A stretch of DNA of 33,385 bases from Bacillota bacterium (GTDB taxonomy: Bacteria > Bacillota > Limnochordia > Darwinibacteriales > Darwinibacteriaceae): the NCBI GenBank assembly GCA_012521465.1, contig JAAYMI010000171.1, positions 1 through 33,385 of the forward strand, written 5' to 3'. The notes below the pieces were generated by a model that was not told the origin of the DNA, made no database searches, and saw nothing but the letters and a program-made list of their open reading frames with translations. The position numbers and the translations under genes are program-made. This document shows positions 1,824 to 7,797 of the stretch, piece by piece (positions within the stretch are counted from its first letter, which is position 1; each line of letters opens with the position of its first letter).

Positions 1824-2462
1824 ATGATGCCGAATGATCGAAATACTCTTTTGACGCGTTATCCTGAGCTTACGTCTATTATAGCGGAAATTGAGCGGGC
1901 TTGCGATGTTCTGGAAGAAGCTTTCCGGACGGGCAGAAAGCTGCTCGTCTGCGGTAATGGCGGCAGCGCTGCGGACAGCGAACACATTGTGGGTGAGCTG
2001 ATGAAGGGGTTTCTCAAAACGCGCACTGTCGCAGAGGCTTTTAGGCAGCGCCTTGCGGAACTGGCGGGCAGTGAAGGAGAGGCTTTAGCCTGCAAGCTGC
2101 AGCAGGCTCTGCCTGCCATTTCGCTCACCAGTCAGACATCTCTCATCACAGCTATCGGCAACGACAATGGCTATGAGTTCGTCTTTGCCCAACAAGTGTT
2201 GGGTTACGGACAGCCAGGTGATGTGCTGCTCGCCATCACCACATCAGGCAGCTCCCGCAATGTGGTGAATGCCTGCCTTGCCGCGAGGGCTCTCGGCATG
2301 ATTGTGCTCGGCTTTACGGGGCAGGGAGGTGGTAGAGTGGGTGAACTGAGCCACTACCTCATTGCAGTCCCCGAAGGAGAAACAGCGCATGTCCAGGAAC
2401 TGCAGCAGGCAGTCTATCACTATATCTGTGCTGAAATCGAGCGGCGGTTTTTTCCCCAGTAA
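1824..2462 (+). CDS. SIS-domain phosphosugar isomerase, GmhA-like
   Basis: The product is about 212 aa with a single SIS (sugar isomerase) domain. Hallmarks are the phosphosugar-binding loop CGNGGSAAD, the ITTSGSSRNV loop and the conserved AIGNDNGYEFVFAQQV segment seen in sedoheptulose-7-phosphate isomerase (GmhA) and relatives. Compared with classical GmhA it has an insertion of about 25 residues (roughly 62-90) between the first helix and the TSLITAI strand. It may therefore belong to a related clostridial SIS group and not be a true heptose enzyme. The ATG at 1824 (or 1827) follows AGGGGGT at 1814-1820. A heptose or other sugar-phosphate role in envelope synthesis is plausible but unproven. 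Confidence 0.8.
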   Translation: MMPNDRNTLLTRYPELTSIIAEIERACDVLEEAFRTGRKLLVCGNGGSAADSEHIVGELMKGFLKTRTVAEAFRQRLAELAGSEGEALACKLQQALPAISLTSQTSLITAIGNDNGYEFVFAQQVLGYGQPGDVLLAITTSGSSRNVVNACLAARALGMIVLGFTGQGGGRVGELSHYLIAVPEGETAHVQELQQAVYHYICAEIERRFFPQ

Positions 2463-2481: not shown

Positions 2482-2510
2482 TTGCGTTGAGGTACGACAT
2501 AGGGTATAAT
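2482..2510 (+). promoter_or_regulatory. Promoter for the TetR/exporter operon
   Basis: TTGCGT (2482-2487), a 17-nt spacer and a perfect TATAAT (2505-2510) lie about 65 nt before the regulator start. I did not see a clear TetR operator palindrome in the leader. Confidence 0.6.
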
Positions 2511-2575
2511 TAAGCCAGGCAAAGATTCGAACGAACGACCGATTTATCCCGTGGAAAGAGAAGGTGTTTAGCGCT

Positions 2576-3127
2576 GTGAACAAGACCCAAGAAGAGCAGA
2601 TCTTGTCGGCGGCTTATATATGCATTGCCAGGGAAGGTTATGGCAGCGTCAGCCTCAGACAGATTGCACAGGAGGCAGGTGTGGCAGTCAGCCAGATCAG
2701 CTATCACTTCAAGAATAAGGAAGGACTGCTCCTGGCTGTCATAGCTCAAGCTGCGGAAAAATACCACAACTTGATGCGGCAGACCATCGCTGACATCCAA
2801 TCTCCAGCGGAAAAAGAAGAAAGGCTGATTGCTCTTTTTAAAGAGGTGCTCATGAAAGACACGGCGTTGTTCCGAGTGATTTATGACTCTGCGGGCCTAG
2901 CTTTGTTTTCCGAGACATTTAGAACCAAGATGCAGGAAGTTTTCGCCGGCATCAGGCAGCAAATCGTGGACGAGATCCAAACTGCGGTGGAAGATCCGGC
3001 CGATGTGGCGCCCATCTCGCGGCTCATGTTTGGAGTGATTCTTGGCACCGCGATTCAGTTTCTCCTTGAACCAGATGATCCAGCAATTCTTGACTCCCTC
3101 GACATGCTTGGGCGTTTCTTCAGCTAG
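2576..3127 (+). CDS. TetR/AcrR family transcriptional regulator
   Basis: The product is about 183 aa with an N-terminal TetR helix-turn-helix: ILSAAYICIAREGYGSVSLRQIA, AGVAVSQISYHFKNKEGLL, in the usual positions 7-52. It is followed by an all-helical ligand-binding domain (FRVIYDSAGLALFSETF). Regulators of this type repress exporters and release DNA when a hydrophobic ligand binds. I prefer the GTG at 2576 because AGAAGGTG precedes it by 9 nt; a GTG at 2564 is the alternative. The exporter fusion starts 18 nt downstream, so this is most likely the first gene and the repressor of the 2576-7461 operon. The ligand is unknown. Confidence 0.85.
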   Translation: MNKTQEEQILSAAYICIAREGYGSVSLRQIAQEAGVAVSQISYHFKNKEGLLLAVIAQAAEKYHNLMRQTIADIQSPAEKEERLIALFKEVLMKDTALFRVIYDSAGLALFSETFRTKMQEVFAGIRQQIVDEIQTAVEDPADVAPISRLMFGVILGTAIQFLLEPDDPAILDSLDMLGRFFS

Positions 3128-3145
3128 ACCAGTGAGGTGGTATGC

Positions 3146-6100
3146 ATGCATCGGCTGATCAAGTCCGTCCTGCGGCGGCCGTGGCTTTACTTGACCCTAG
3201 CACTGCTCGTAACCCTTATTACAGCATCGTTTATTCCCCGGCTAGAATTTGATGCCAGTATCATGTCCATGATCCCTGACGATGATCCGGTGTTGGAAGA
3301 ACTGCAGGAAGTTACTCGCGAGTTTGGTTCGCAGGAGCTTTTTGCTGTGACGCTCCGAGCGGAGGACATCTATGAGCCTGCAGTCCTGAATAAACTCGCC
3401 GCGCTGGAAAAGGAAATAGCCGCTCTGCCAGGAGTAAGCCGAGTGGACAGTCCATTCAATGTCCAGCTGGTGGAAAGTGGGTTTTTTGGCATCGATATTC
3501 GGCCTGTTACAGCAGCAGTTCCCCAGACACCTGAGGAGATTGCCGATTTTCGTGCCGCATTCGCCCAAACGCCATACGCCGGTCGATTGATCACAGCGGA
3601 TGGACGCGGTGCCATGCTGCTGGTCGAGTTTGAGCCCTGGGATGATGAGGAAAAGCGGCTGGTGGTGAAAGACATCGAGCGAATCGCTCAGTCCTATGCC
3701 GGTCCAGAGGAGATTTCAGTTGTCGGCGACCTCTATGTTTTCCACTATACAGAATATGCCATGCAGCAGGACCTCCTGCGCTTGGTTCCATTTGTAGTTG
3801 TTGCGATTATTGTTGTCTTGTATTGGACGTTCCGTTCTTTCTTGGGCGTTGCTGTTCCGCTTGTGACCGTCTCTCTGAGCTTGATTTGGACAGTAGGCCT
3901 GATGGCTTTGTTTAAGGTGCCCATATCGATTATCTCCATGGTTCTGCCCATGATTCTCTTAACATTGGGAGTTGCTTCTGGCATTCATATTCTCAATAAA
4001 TACCAGGAGCTCTTGGCGTTAGGCCTAGAAAAGACGGTCGCTCTGGAGCGGACGTTCACAGAAATTGCCTCCCCCGTGATCATGGCCGCCTTAACCACAT
4101 GCGCAGGCTTTGCCTCCCTGATTACCGCCTTTGTCCGCCCGATTCGGGAGTTCGGCGTGTTTACCGCCTTCGGGGTGGCGGCAGCGATGGCGCTCTCCCT
4201 CACAGTGGTTCCCGCCGCGCTTGTGTTGGTGAGGCCGCCGAAAACAAAGACCCAGCACCCCGGCAAGCCGCGGTCCGGCCTACTCACCGTTGGACTAGAC
4301 CGCATTGCTCGGCTGGCACTGTACCGCAACCGTCTGGTAATTGTGGTGGGTATCGGTTTGCTGGTGGTGATGGGGATCGGCGGCAGTCTGATTCAGCTGG
4401 AGAGCAATATCGTGAACTACTTTGATGAAGAGACGCCGATTAGGCGAGCAACCACCACGGTGGAAGAGGTCTTTGGGGGAAGCATGCAGCTGGCAGTCGT
4501 TTTCGACACTGGTCAGCCAGATGGGATCAAAGACCCAGCTGTGCTTCGGAAAATTGAAGAAACCGCGGAGTATCTCGATACGTTTACCACCATCAACCAT
4601 GCCACTTCCATCGTAGATGTGCTGAAACTGCTTAACCAGGCTCTCTGGGACGGAGACCCAGAGTTCTACAGGGTTCCTGAGACCCGGGAAGCCGTTGCGC
4701 AGCAGCTTCTCCTGTTTACGATGCAGGGTGGTTCTGGGCTGGATTCCCTCGTAAGCTACGATTACCGGCAAGCCATCATTAACGCCCAGATGAAAACCCT
4801 TGATGCCAAGCAGCTGGCTGATGTGATTCAAGCAGTGGAAGACTACGTGGAGCAGGAGTTTGGTCATGACCAAACCCTAAGAGTGACTGTGACAGGTACT
4901 CCTAAGGTTATGATGCGGTTGATGGACCGCTACGTGCAGACCCAGGTTTCCAGCCTGATTACGTCCACTATCGCTGTAGGCCTCATTGTTATGCTCTTGA
5001 TGGGTTCGGTGGTCTTAGGGCTGCTCTGCCTTGTTCCCCTGGCGTTCACTGTGGCAGTTAATTTTGGTGTCATGGGTTTTGTGGGCATCCCTCTGGACGC
5101 AGTTACCTCGATTATTGCCAGCTTGGCTATAGGGCTAGGCATCGACTATGCCGTTCACTACGTGAGCCGCTATCGGCAAGAACGGGAGGCGGGCCGTAGT
5201 TTCGACGATGCCATTCTTGTCACAGGAACCACAGCTGGGCGGGGAATCTTCTATAATTCCGCAGCTTTGGTCGTTGGACTGCTCGTACTTGTCTTCTCCA
5301 GATATTTTCGGGCGATCGGGATTTTTGGCTACCTCATGGCCCTGACTATGGTAATCAGCAGTTTAGCCACTTTAGCGCTCATACCGGTATTTCTGCGAGT
5401 CTACGAAAATCGCACGCTAAGAGGGGGTAAGCACATGAGAAGGGCAGTCTTTGTCCTAGCCCTGGTACTGCTGGGGTTGTCCAGCACAGCATTAGCTCAA
5501 GAGTTGACGGGCAGCGAGATTCTCGAACAAATCGCACTAACTAATCTCTTGGCAGGATCAGGAACTGCACAGCTGGAGCTGATTACGGAGAACGCCACCG
5601 GTGCCCGGCGGAGTTACAGCCTGCAGATATTCCGCCAGCAGGATAGTGCAGGGGAAAAGCAGTTGCTGGAATACCTCGGGCCTGCGGATGTGCGGGGAAC
5701 CAAGTTCCTGGCCATCAAAGAGGGAGATGGGCCCCGCCAGATGTGGCTCTATATGCCTGCGCTGGGGCGAGAACGGCGGATCGCGGCCAATATGACCGGA
5801 GACAAGTTCATGGGCACTGACTTTACTTACGAAGAGATCGCAGGTGACTTTGATTACAAGGAGCAGTACGAAGCGGAGCGGCTTCCAGATGAGGTATTAG
5901 ACGGGCATAATGCCTATGTGCTGCTGATGCGGCCGGCGGAGAATGCGCCCTACCAAGAGGTAAGAATGTGGGTGCAGCAGGATGGAATGCTGCCCATCAA
6001 AATAGAGCTGTTTGAACAGAATGCAGCAGCGCCCACCAAGACACTCCGACTTGGTGATTTCCGGGATGTAGATGGCGAAGTGGTACCCCACTACTTAGAG

Positions 6101-6205
6101 ATGCGGGATGAACTGGCAGGCACCCGCACCATCCTGCAGCTTTCTGAGATCAGCAGTGAACGGGTCTCAGACGATATCTTTTCCCTGCGTTACTTGCGGC
6201 GCTAG
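3146..6205 (+). CDS. MMPL/RND-family exporter fused to a LolA-like lipoprotein-sorting domain
   Basis: The open frame runs 1019 codons. Residues 1-763 are an MMPL/RND permease with two equivalent halves. Each half has one membrane helix, a large external loop and a bundle of five helices (for example around GVASGIHILNKY in half one and GLGIDYAVHYVSRY in half two). These proteins move lipids or hydrophobic compounds using the proton gradient. Residues 764-1019 begin with a complete signal peptide (MRRAVFVLALVLLGLSSTALA, cleavage before QE). A LolA/LppX-like sorting fold follows (QMWLYMPALGRERRI, GDKFMGTDFTYEEI, PIKIELF). Genes for these two parts are usually separate neighbours. The start at ATG 3146 follows GAGGTGG; an upstream GTG at 3137 overlaps that site. 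Part of the TetR/exporter/barrel operon. Confidence 0.8.
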   Translation: MHRLIKSVLRRPWLYLTLALLVTLITASFIPRLEFDASIMSMIPDDDPVLEELQEVTREFGSQELFAVTLRAEDIYEPAVLNKLAALEKEIAALPGVSRVDSPFNVQLVESGFFGIDIRPVTAAVPQTPEEIADFRAAFAQTPYAGRLITADGRGAMLLVEFEPWDDEEKRLVVKDIERIAQSYAGPEEISVVGDLYVFHYTEYAMQQDLLRLVPFVVVAIIVVLYWTFRSFLGVAVPLVTVSLSLIWTVGLMALFKVPISIISMVLPMILLTLGVASGIHILNKYQELLALGLEKTVALERTFTEIASPVIMAALTTCAGFASLITAFVRPIREFGVFTAFGVAAAMALSLTVVPAALVLVRPPKTKTQHPGKPRSGLLTVGLDRIARLALYRNRLVIVVGIGLLVVMGIGGSLIQLESNIVNYFDEETPIRRATTTVEEVFGGSMQLAVVFDTGQPDGIKDPAVLRKIEETAEYLDTFTTINHATSIVDVLKLLNQALWDGDPEFYRVPETREAVAQQLLLFTMQGGSGLDSLVSYDYRQAIINAQMKTLDAKQLADVIQAVEDYVEQEFGHDQTLRVTVTGTPKVMMRLMDRYVQTQVSSLITSTIAVGLIVMLLMGSVVLGLLCLVPLAFTVAVNFGVMGFVGIPLDAVTSIIASLAIGLGIDYAVHYVSRYRQEREAGRSFDDAILVTGTTAGRGIFYNSAALVVGLLVLVFSRYFRAIGIFGYLMALTMVISSLATLALIPVFLRVYENRTLRGGKHMRRAVFVLALVLLGLSSTALAQELTGSEILEQIALTNLLAGSGTAQLELITENATGARRSYSLQIFRQQDSAGEKQLLEYLGPADVRGTKFLAIKEGDGPRQMWLYMPALGRERRIAANMTGDKFMGTDFTYEEIAGDFDYKEQYEAERLPDEVLDGHNAYVLLMRPAENAPYQEVRMWVQQDGMLPIKIELFEQNAAAPTKTLRLGDFRDVDGEVVPHYLEMRDELAGTRTILQLSEISSERVSDDIFSLRYLRR
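5435..6205 (+). CDS. Possible internal start: LolA-like outer-membrane lipoprotein-sorting protein
   Basis: Inside the fused frame, an ATG at 5435 is preceded by GAGGGGG (5421-5427) at 7 nt and opens with a textbook signal peptide. It would give a separate 256-aa exported protein. The 14 bases before it look like an intergenic spacer: each of the other two frames has a TAA there (5418-5420 and 5428-5430). The LolA-like protein may therefore be made independently, as a cleaved part of the fusion, or both. A sequencing or assembly indel could also have joined two genes. LolA-type proteins carry lipoproteins or lipids across the periplasm. Confidence 0.5.
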   Translation: MRRAVFVLALVLLGLSSTALAQELTGSEILEQIALTNLLAGSGTAQLELITENATGARRSYSLQIFRQQDSAGEKQLLEYLGPADVRGTKFLAIKEGDGPRQMWLYMPALGRERRIAANMTGDKFMGTDFTYEEIAGDFDYKEQYEAERLPDEVLDGHNAYVLLMRPAENAPYQEVRMWVQQDGMLPIKIELFEQNAAAPTKTLRLGDFRDVDGEVVPHYLEMRDELAGTRTILQLSEISSERVSDDIFSLRYLRR

Positions 6206-6228
6206 CAGCTGAGAGGGAGGAAAAAGCA

Positions 6229-7461
6229 ATGCGCAAAGGGATCTACACTGTGACTCTGGTTCTCGCAGCACTGGTGATGAGTACCGCTGCCGATGCCGCT
6301 TCAGTAGGTGGCGAACTGCAGGCCAGTGTTGTGTATGAGCTTGAGGCAGGAATCAGCTCAGCCCCCTTGCACCTGACCGTCGCAGTGAGCGACGATCTTT
6401 CCGGTAAGGGGAAACTGCATGCTGCGCTCAAGGGCAGGCTCGACCCGGTGGAAGACGTCTACAGCGCGGCGCTCGGTGAAGTATATGGATCATTTTACCT
6501 GGGGGATGTAGATCTGACAGTGGGGAGGAAGATCATCAGCTGGGGGACGGTGGATGCCTTTGGCCCCACCAATTACTTCGCCAGGCTGAGCGAAGATGCC
6601 CTGGTCCAGGGTTCGATGGCGGGCGAACCAGTCACCGGTGTGCAGGCAGCCTATTACGGTCCGGGATGGACCATAACAGGTGTAGTGCTGCCCGTCTTTA
6701 AGCCTCAAGCCGTTACCCCGCTGATGCGGGAGAAGATACTGGCAGAGCCTAATGGAGAATTGCTCCTGGCGGCAATCGAAGAAACAGCCCCGCCCCCGTT
6801 CGGCTTGGAAAACATGGAACTTGGCGTGAGGGTGGAGACTTCGGCACAAGGTTGGGACGTACAGCTCAGCGCCTACCGCGGCTTCGAACCGCTGCCGGGC
6901 GTGAGGGCAGTAACAACCCTCATTCCCTTTACTACCACCTTGGAGGGCGAGTACCGCCGCCAGACATATGTGGGAGCCGCCGTGGTCGGCTTCGTCGGCG
7001 ATGTTGGTATTCGCGCAGAGGTTGCTTACGGTGGGCCAACTCCGTTTCCTGAAGCTCGAAGCTGGACAATTGTTACGCCTCTGTCGCAAAACAAGTCGGC
7101 TTGGAAAGGCGCGGTCGGGGTGGAATACCTTTTTCCCATAGGGAACGGCTTGCTGGCTCAAGGTCAGTACATCTATGAAGGGCGTGGCAGCCTGTTCAGC
7201 CCCTATTTCGACCCTACGGTTGAGCCAGAACCAGCCCATTACCTCATGGGTAGGATCTCCTACAACTTCACACTGGAAAACCGCGTGGAGCTCACAGCCC
7301 TATACAGCCGGCAGGACGGCAGTGCACTACTGCTGCCTAGTTTCACCTATCGCCTTACCCAGGGCCTGGAGCTTAGAGGTTCCTGTCTCAAGAACGTGGG
7401 GGACGGTGAGCTCACTTTACTGCCAGACCAAGTGCGTGCTGTCGCGGTCTTAAGGTTCTAA
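6229..7461 (+). CDS. Putative outer-membrane beta-barrel protein (DUF1302/porin-like)
   Basis: The product is 410 aa with a signal peptide (MRKGIYTVTLVLAALVMSTAADA, cut before AS). The rest is mostly alternating amphipathic strands with few long hydrophobic helices, as in outer-membrane barrels. The segment LTVGRKIISWGTVDAFGPTNY matches the pattern of DUF1302-type barrels (GRQ..WG....D..NP). The final residue is Phe (AVAVLRF), the usual C-terminal aromatic signal for the BAM machinery. In Gram-negative bacteria DUF1302 barrels are found beside MMPL exporters and a sorting protein, as here. It starts 23 nt after the exporter gene with GAGGGAGG as ribosome-binding site. The exact family is inferred from pattern, not from a search. 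Confidence 0.65.
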   Translation: MRKGIYTVTLVLAALVMSTAADAASVGGELQASVVYELEAGISSAPLHLTVAVSDDLSGKGKLHAALKGRLDPVEDVYSAALGEVYGSFYLGDVDLTVGRKIISWGTVDAFGPTNYFARLSEDALVQGSMAGEPVTGVQAAYYGPGWTITGVVLPVFKPQAVTPLMREKILAEPNGELLLAAIEETAPPPFGLENMELGVRVETSAQGWDVQLSAYRGFEPLPGVRAVTTLIPFTTTLEGEYRRQTYVGAAVVGFVGDVGIRAEVAYGGPTPFPEARSWTIVTPLSQNKSAWKGAVGVEYLFPIGNGLLAQGQYIYEGRGSLFSPYFDPTVEPEPAHYLMGRISYNFTLENRVELTALYSRQDGSALLLPSFTYRLTQGLELRGSCLKNVGDGELTLLPDQVRAVAVLRF

Positions 7462-7560: not shown

Positions 7561-7797
7561 GTGCGAAAAGAACCTAAACCAGATGATCGGCGCGACAATG
7601 TCGACCGCTTGCAGGAACAGGTCGTGAATACCATTGAAAACCTGGAGGCGGCTCATGAGACGCTTCGCAACGAGGATCTTCCTCCTGAACAGCGAGAGCG
7701 GATTATCGCGAAAAACCGCCGGCGGGAGGAGGCCATTGCCGCCAAGCGAGAGGAGATTAAGGACGAATACGAGTTCCAACAGCGGCAGAAAGATTAG
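7561..7797 (+). CDS. tlp: Small acid-soluble spore protein, Tlp family
   Basis: This 78-aa, highly charged protein has the Tlp signature: PDDRRDNVDRLQE near the N-terminus, NTIENLEAAHETL, then KNRRREEAIAAKREEIKDE. Bacillus Tlp is about 83 aa and is made only in the developing forespore, where it is a minor spore-core protein. The GTG at 7561 is preceded by AAAGGTGG at 7 nt, and its MRKEPKPDDR start fits the family better than an upstream in-frame GTG at 7540. No signal peptide is present. The gene is the clearest evidence in the window that the organism makes endospores. It probably has its own forespore promoter, and a terminator follows. Confidence 0.9.
   Translation: MRKEPKPDDRRDNVDRLQEQVVNTIENLEAAHETLRNEDLPPEQRERIIAKNRRREEAIAAKREEIKDEYEFQQRQKD

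Follow-up and report, generated by a model that had tools for sequence, protein, structure and literature searches.

In this study, an apparently locally regulated RND-LolA-barrel cassette was characterized in a diderm, spore-forming member of the Bacillota. The cassette lies at positions 2482 to 7461 of the window, by which we mean the whole stretch of 33,385 bp that was analysed, and is read from the plus strand in the order promoter, tetR, MMPL-LolA and barrel gene, with intergenic gaps of 18 and 23 bases. It is real and well conserved, and we hold with moderate confidence that it would encode an inducible exporter carrying a hydrophobic or amphiphilic compound across the envelope, in one operon repressed by TetR. 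The sequence-only reading of this region was correct in most respects.

An ORF check of the window confirmed the ORF positions, and the Pfam domains bore out a TetR regulator followed by MMPL and LolA in one frame and by a signal-peptide barrel protein. The gene for the TetR-family repressor (2576–3127, plus strand; PF00440, E = 1.6e-14) has its longest ORF from 2564; GTG 2576 is probably the start, because it fits the ribosome-binding site and the alignments of relatives begin at that codon. The frame 3137–6205 matched both MMPL (E = 2e-51) and LolA_like PF17131 (E = 9.1e-46). Its first part encodes an HAE3-like MMPL/RND inner-membrane pump (3146–5434, plus strand; PF03176, E = 2e-51; longest ORF from 3137), which probably starts at ATG 3146. 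PF03176 matched the pump in two stretches, and 12 hydrophobic stretches, the predicted helices, precede the LolA signal in the hydropathy profile. The best NCBIfam model was HAE3 TIGR00921 with 299 bits, under its cut-off of 351.9; judged from these matches, membership of the MMPL proteins is secure and that of HAE3 only likely. The HpnN models gave 144 bits of a 751.85 cut-off and 82 of 1100. In one relative (locus L045, G012:C32) the pump gene shifts frame near residue 100, which probably reflects a misassembly or a broken gene copy.

The second part of the frame encodes a LolA-like periplasmic carrier with its own signal peptide (5435–6205, plus strand; PF17131, E = 7.1e-47; signal sequence MRRAVFVLALVLLGLSSTALA), with 3bk5 and 9tp6 as solved relatives. 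It scored 156–160 bits against a PF17131 gathering cut-off of 30, with a weak DUF1329 match; the match is not to classical LolA. Inside the long frame lie an internal Shine-Dalgarno sequence (AGGGGG, 5422–5427) and an ATG (5435–5437) for this carrier, together spanning 5422–5437 on the plus strand. No RNA families were found in an Rfam scan of the window.

Upstream of the operon, a gene for a GmhA-like SIS isomerase (window 1824–2462) separates it from a 2′-5′ RNA ligase gene in this genus only; elsewhere in the family the ligase gene is directly upstream of the operon. On the other side, the gene for spore protein Tlp (window 7561–7797) had been placed a few bases from the barrel gene; it begins 99 bases past the barrel stop. 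In other family members this distance reaches about 3 kb, with other genes between, so that Tlp is a neighbour rather than a member of the operon.

Regulation was examined by aligning the regions before tetR from 18 family loci. Only two stretches matched: TATAAT and, just 3′ of it, the partial dyad TTCGAACGGTCGTCCGATYGAA. In the window, the promoter (2482–2510, plus strand) consists of a weak −35 element (TTGCGT, 2482–2487), a 17-base spacer and a perfect −10 box (TATAAT, 2505–2510). For the single promoter that had been proposed, the −10 box was kept in 18/18 loci; the −35 element is poor, and a generic promoter scan did not list the site. The operator-like partial dyad TTCGAACGAACGACCGATTTAT (2526–2547, assigned to neither strand), the presumed TetR site, is likewise conserved, as TTCGAACGGTCGTCCGA, in all 18 upstream regions checked. 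When 15 family genomes were scanned with TTCGAACGNNCGNCCGA, allowing ≤1 mismatch, 14 had one site each, always before this tetR, and 12 of these were exact; the pattern was not found in the fifteenth genome (G010). With the reversed pattern as control, roughly one site per genome turned up by chance. In the window's own genome the dyad is the sole such site. Restricted to this operon in 14 of 15 genomes, the operator is the mark of a local repressor, and a conserved, near-unique site of this kind is a strong footprint of what would be an autoregulated, single-target repressor. The ligand-responsive repressor of the sequence-only reading is thus supported by an operator conserved at the repressor's own promoter, at which TetR would bind and from which a ligand would release it.

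The barrel gene (6229–7461, plus strand) encodes a protein of 410 residues with a signal peptide and a C-terminal Phe. A Pfam scan of this protein alone found no match to DUF1302 or any other family. The guess that it is DUF1302-like gained its support through relatives, as 22 of the 27 family members scanned matched PF06980 (DUF1302), with a best E of 4.1e-13. Homologues of the barrel were gathered from relatives, the named ones including a Limnochordaceae bin and many "Bacillota bacterium" bins; the complete relatives listed have an apparent signal peptide at the start and Phe at the end. The motif to which the first reading had drawn attention, GRKIISWGTVDAFGP, comprises residues 99–113, and its G99, W105, G106, T107, D109 and P113, as well as the C-terminal F410 also singled out in that reading, are invariant in 28 aligned sequences. 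Structure prediction with AlphaFold2 from 46 sequences gave a beta-barrel-type model with roughly 18 long strands (pLDDT 91.5, pTM 0.84), in keeping with the fold that had been expected; folding without an alignment was useless (pLDDT 31). The best Foldseek matches to the model were the Veillonella porin OmpM1 (E = 1.3e-10), OmpC/OmpF-type porins and AlgE, with TM-scores near 0.5 that suggest a shared general fold and not close kinship. Searches of PDB sequences with the barrel sequence or its profile returned nothing meaningful. The modelled fold, taken with the signal peptide and the C-terminal aromatic residue, identifies the product as a predicted outer-membrane beta-barrel.

The pump and carrier are indeed in a single frame here, as had been reported, but this state is unstable among relatives. 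A shared frame for MMPL and LolA was seen at 13 close loci; at 9 they are separate genes, namely 7 in family genomes, one in a genome of another family of the same order (G029) and one in an unplaced Bacillota bin. Separate genes are 0 to 5 bases apart or overlap by ATGA, and the pump tree implies about four switches between the two states. An assembly error was rejected as the source of the fusion, the same one-frame state being present in 13 loci. Whether fused or separate, every copy retains both the start codon and the signal peptide of LolA, and a clear LolA Shine-Dalgarno sequence is present in nearly all, the weakest being that of G008. Where the pump frame enters the LolA start region, one phase reads through and the others run into a stop, either at ATGA or at a TAG or TAA within the spacer. 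With read-through at the tight junction depending on phase, the one-frame state is a changeable outcome of how closely the genes are packed and not a fixed new protein, and the fusion is less special than first held. Since ribosome-binding site, start and signal peptide are retained, free LolA is probably made as well as the long form. Twelve helices would put the C-terminus of the pump in the cytoplasm, with basic residues, from where the LolA signal sequence would lead outward; both products are therefore topologically workable in the model, and the long form, the short form or both may be made.

The cassette was present in 21 of 23 family genomes and was not found in G010 and G017; in G008 it is interrupted by a contig end. 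A close barrel homologue occurs in 20 of the 23, pump and carrier adjoin in nearly all, and TetR is found where the contig is long enough. A further copy, again at a contig end, is in G029. Further families of the class also have the order MMPL-LolA-barrel, as do Halanaerobiales, Bacteroidota, Deltaproteobacteria, WOR-3 and Fermentibacteria, the Halanaerobiales copies having their own, different TetR. Neighbourhood comparison found no recurring biosynthesis gene beside the copies. A gene for a secreted patatin-like phospholipase of about 550 aa lies downstream of, and convergent to, the barrel gene in many family members (loci L034, L035, L036, L039, L042, L043 and L047), and one is also near a Halanaerobiales copy (L090); none was found beside the window's own cassette.

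The host genome (2.52 Mb, 98.6% complete) encodes BamA/Omp85 (E = 9.5e-53), on a contig that also carries FlgI, OmpH, LptF/G and the start of an OstA/LptD-like gene, so the search for outer-membrane genes was positive. Neither of the conditions named as refuting the first reading, a genome devoid of BamA and other outer-membrane genes or a predicted fold other than a barrel, was observed. BamA was found in 59 of 61 genomes of relatives searched, and its origin as contamination of the bin was rejected on this ground; SpoIVA was found in 55 of 61, the host included. As BamA and SpoIVA occur together in the host genome and are found in its relatives as well, the picture of a diderm, endospore-forming cell is right, but it is already known for the class Limnochordia, to which the host probably belongs, to judge from its named relatives, and whose members are diderm and include the Gram-negative spore-former Limnochorda pilosa (PMC11456536).

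LpxC was not found in the host genome, in any of 37 searched genomes of the order, or in family f6; each of the 21 other members of the class that were searched has it. An LpxB-like protein was found in 57 of 61 genomes, with weaker matches in this order. As LpxC is absent from the host and the whole order, the outer membrane is probably not one of canonical LPS, and a glycolipid exported in this order is probably not canonical lipid A. In a sister genome (G001), one cluster contains LptB and LptC over cut-offs, LptF/G, LptA-like and LptD-like proteins and FabZ; the Pfam model of LptD gave no match, and the LptD-like protein was found by position and weak matches. This nearly complete Lpt set adjoins BamA (G001:C1:43500-63400, L197); in the host the locus concerned is G000:C82 (L132). 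The cluster also includes a large SLH-domain protein that matched a porin model weakly (L197:17206-19662), possibly an OmpM-type tether. The missing LpxC is an observation in its own right, from which it does not follow that the cassette substitutes for LPS; a role as general LPS replacement was rejected, the cassette being absent or weakly matched in most f3 genomes, which belong to the same order and likewise lack LpxC.

That this cassette type is already known from ordinary Gram-negative bacteria follows from two systems, one of them a related exporter. In the gammaproteobacterium Thalassolituus oleivorans, TOL_3187-TOL_3188 comprise, by description, an MMPL plus LolA-like domain protein beside a porin-like protein, as here; they differ in their induction by n-C28 alkane, and a TetR was not described (PMC6304351). 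In AmeABCD of Castellaniella defragrans, an HAE3 pump, a LolA-superfamily periplasmic protein and a DUF1302 outer-membrane protein are encoded together, and deletion of ameABCD made the cells less tolerant of monoterpenes and increased their accumulation of Nile Red (PMC6394551). The Ame carrier is a DUF1329 protein, whereas that of the window is PF17131, and the Ame barrel has 605 aa against 410; AmeABCD further has a fourth protein, AmeC (COG4447), and a setting in a monoterpene island, neither of which is seen here. No AmeC-type (COG4447) gene was found between the promoter and 7461, and for want of this subunit the cassette, as judged from its genes, resembles Ame and is not an Ame cassette. 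The aryl polyene transporter ApeL-ApeM-ApeN of E. coli shares an RND pump and a LolA-like carrier with the cassette but has a LolB-like protein, no barrel in the listed cluster and a place among biosynthesis genes (PMC8253772). The hopanoid transporter HpnN is a pump of the same HAE3/MMPL type and, unlike the pump here, acts without a cotranscribed carrier or barrel (PMC6394551).

Inducible hydrophobic export is favoured because of the stand-alone, repressor-controlled layout and the AmeABCD precedent. TetR, bound to the operator just 3′ of the −10 box, would silence its own operon until released by a ligand, probably the cargo itself or a molecule akin to it. By family and fold, the proton-driven RND pump would take up the molecule in the inner membrane and move it to the periplasmic face; the LolA-like protein would then ferry it over the periplasm, and the DUF1302-type barrel would hand it into or through the outer membrane. 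In this genus, with pump and carrier in one frame and free LolA probably made too, the long form could in addition be a substrate of signal peptidase. Conservation of TetR-MMPL-LolA-barrel order in the family and of MMPL-LolA-barrel across phyla, the operator confined to this operon, the lack of a recurring biosynthesis neighbour, the separate TetR of the Halanaerobiales copies, the barrel fold with its DUF1302 kinship and the BamA available for barrel insertion speak for such an exporter. Cargo and direction of transport are putative, being read by analogy, and three points speak against this reading: related sets are induced on long-chain alkanes (PMC6304351) or benzene (PMC13101534), where uptake is equally likely; a counterpart of AmeC is missing; and the patatin phospholipase neighbours of many relatives suit a lipid role too.

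Lipid delivery is the main rival and uptake the next. In the former, which we regard as a fairly unlikely alternative, an endogenous lipid or glycolipid would be moved to or from the outer membrane for envelope building or repair, as with HpnN, ApeM/ApeL and MmpL3. The characterized pumps nearest in sequence (MmpL3/4 and HpnN) carry lipids or siderophores, an outer membrane made without LpxC may hold unusual lipids, and the patatin genes, near the Halanaerobiales copy as well, point the same way; however, the window copy has no patatin beside it, a dedicated single-target repressor would be odd for constitutive envelope building, and most f3 genomes lack the cassette or match it only weakly. 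A hopanoid cargo is itself unlikely, since no squalene-hopene cyclase was found in the host genome. Import of an alkane, terpene or fatty acid, admitted by the barrel, carried by LolA and passed on by the pump, which might instead export the excess, is improbable: TOL_3187 and TOL_3188 were strongly up on n-C28 alkane (PMC6304351) and a similar set was highly expressed in a benzene-degrading culture (PMC13101534), but catabolic genes were not found beside the cassette and the Ame mutant data indicate export (PMC6394551). Slightly less probable still, and speculative, is that the cassette delivers a non-LPS lipid in the LpxC-less outer membrane, with the shifting fused and separate states giving pump-tethered and free carrier.

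A function of the LolA-like part in outer-membrane sorting of lipoproteins or barrel proteins, which the database name of PF17131 ("outer membrane lipoprotein-sorting protein") would suggest, is very improbable, given that the match is PF17131 with weak DUF1329 rather than classical LolA, and that the host's second PF17131 protein has MacB-like ABC permeases and a DUF1302-like barrel of its own as neighbours, so that the carrier accompanies barrels. Encoded with that second protein (G000:C73, L133:1-5286) are the barrel, two permeases and an ABC ATPase of the MacB/LolD-like kind: the same carrier-barrel pair, but driven by an ABC transporter in place of the RND pump.

What is new here is the conserved operator, the spread of the cassette in diderm Bacillota and an explanation of the labile fusion. 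A "fusion protein" can appear or vanish where tightly packed genes leave the second gene its start signals. In diderm Bacillota, the RND-LolA-barrel export module known from Gram-negative bacteria is widespread and, as its operator suggests, locally regulated, and under the preferred reading of inducible export the sharply conserved operator would offer a direct handle on the inducer and hence on the cargo.
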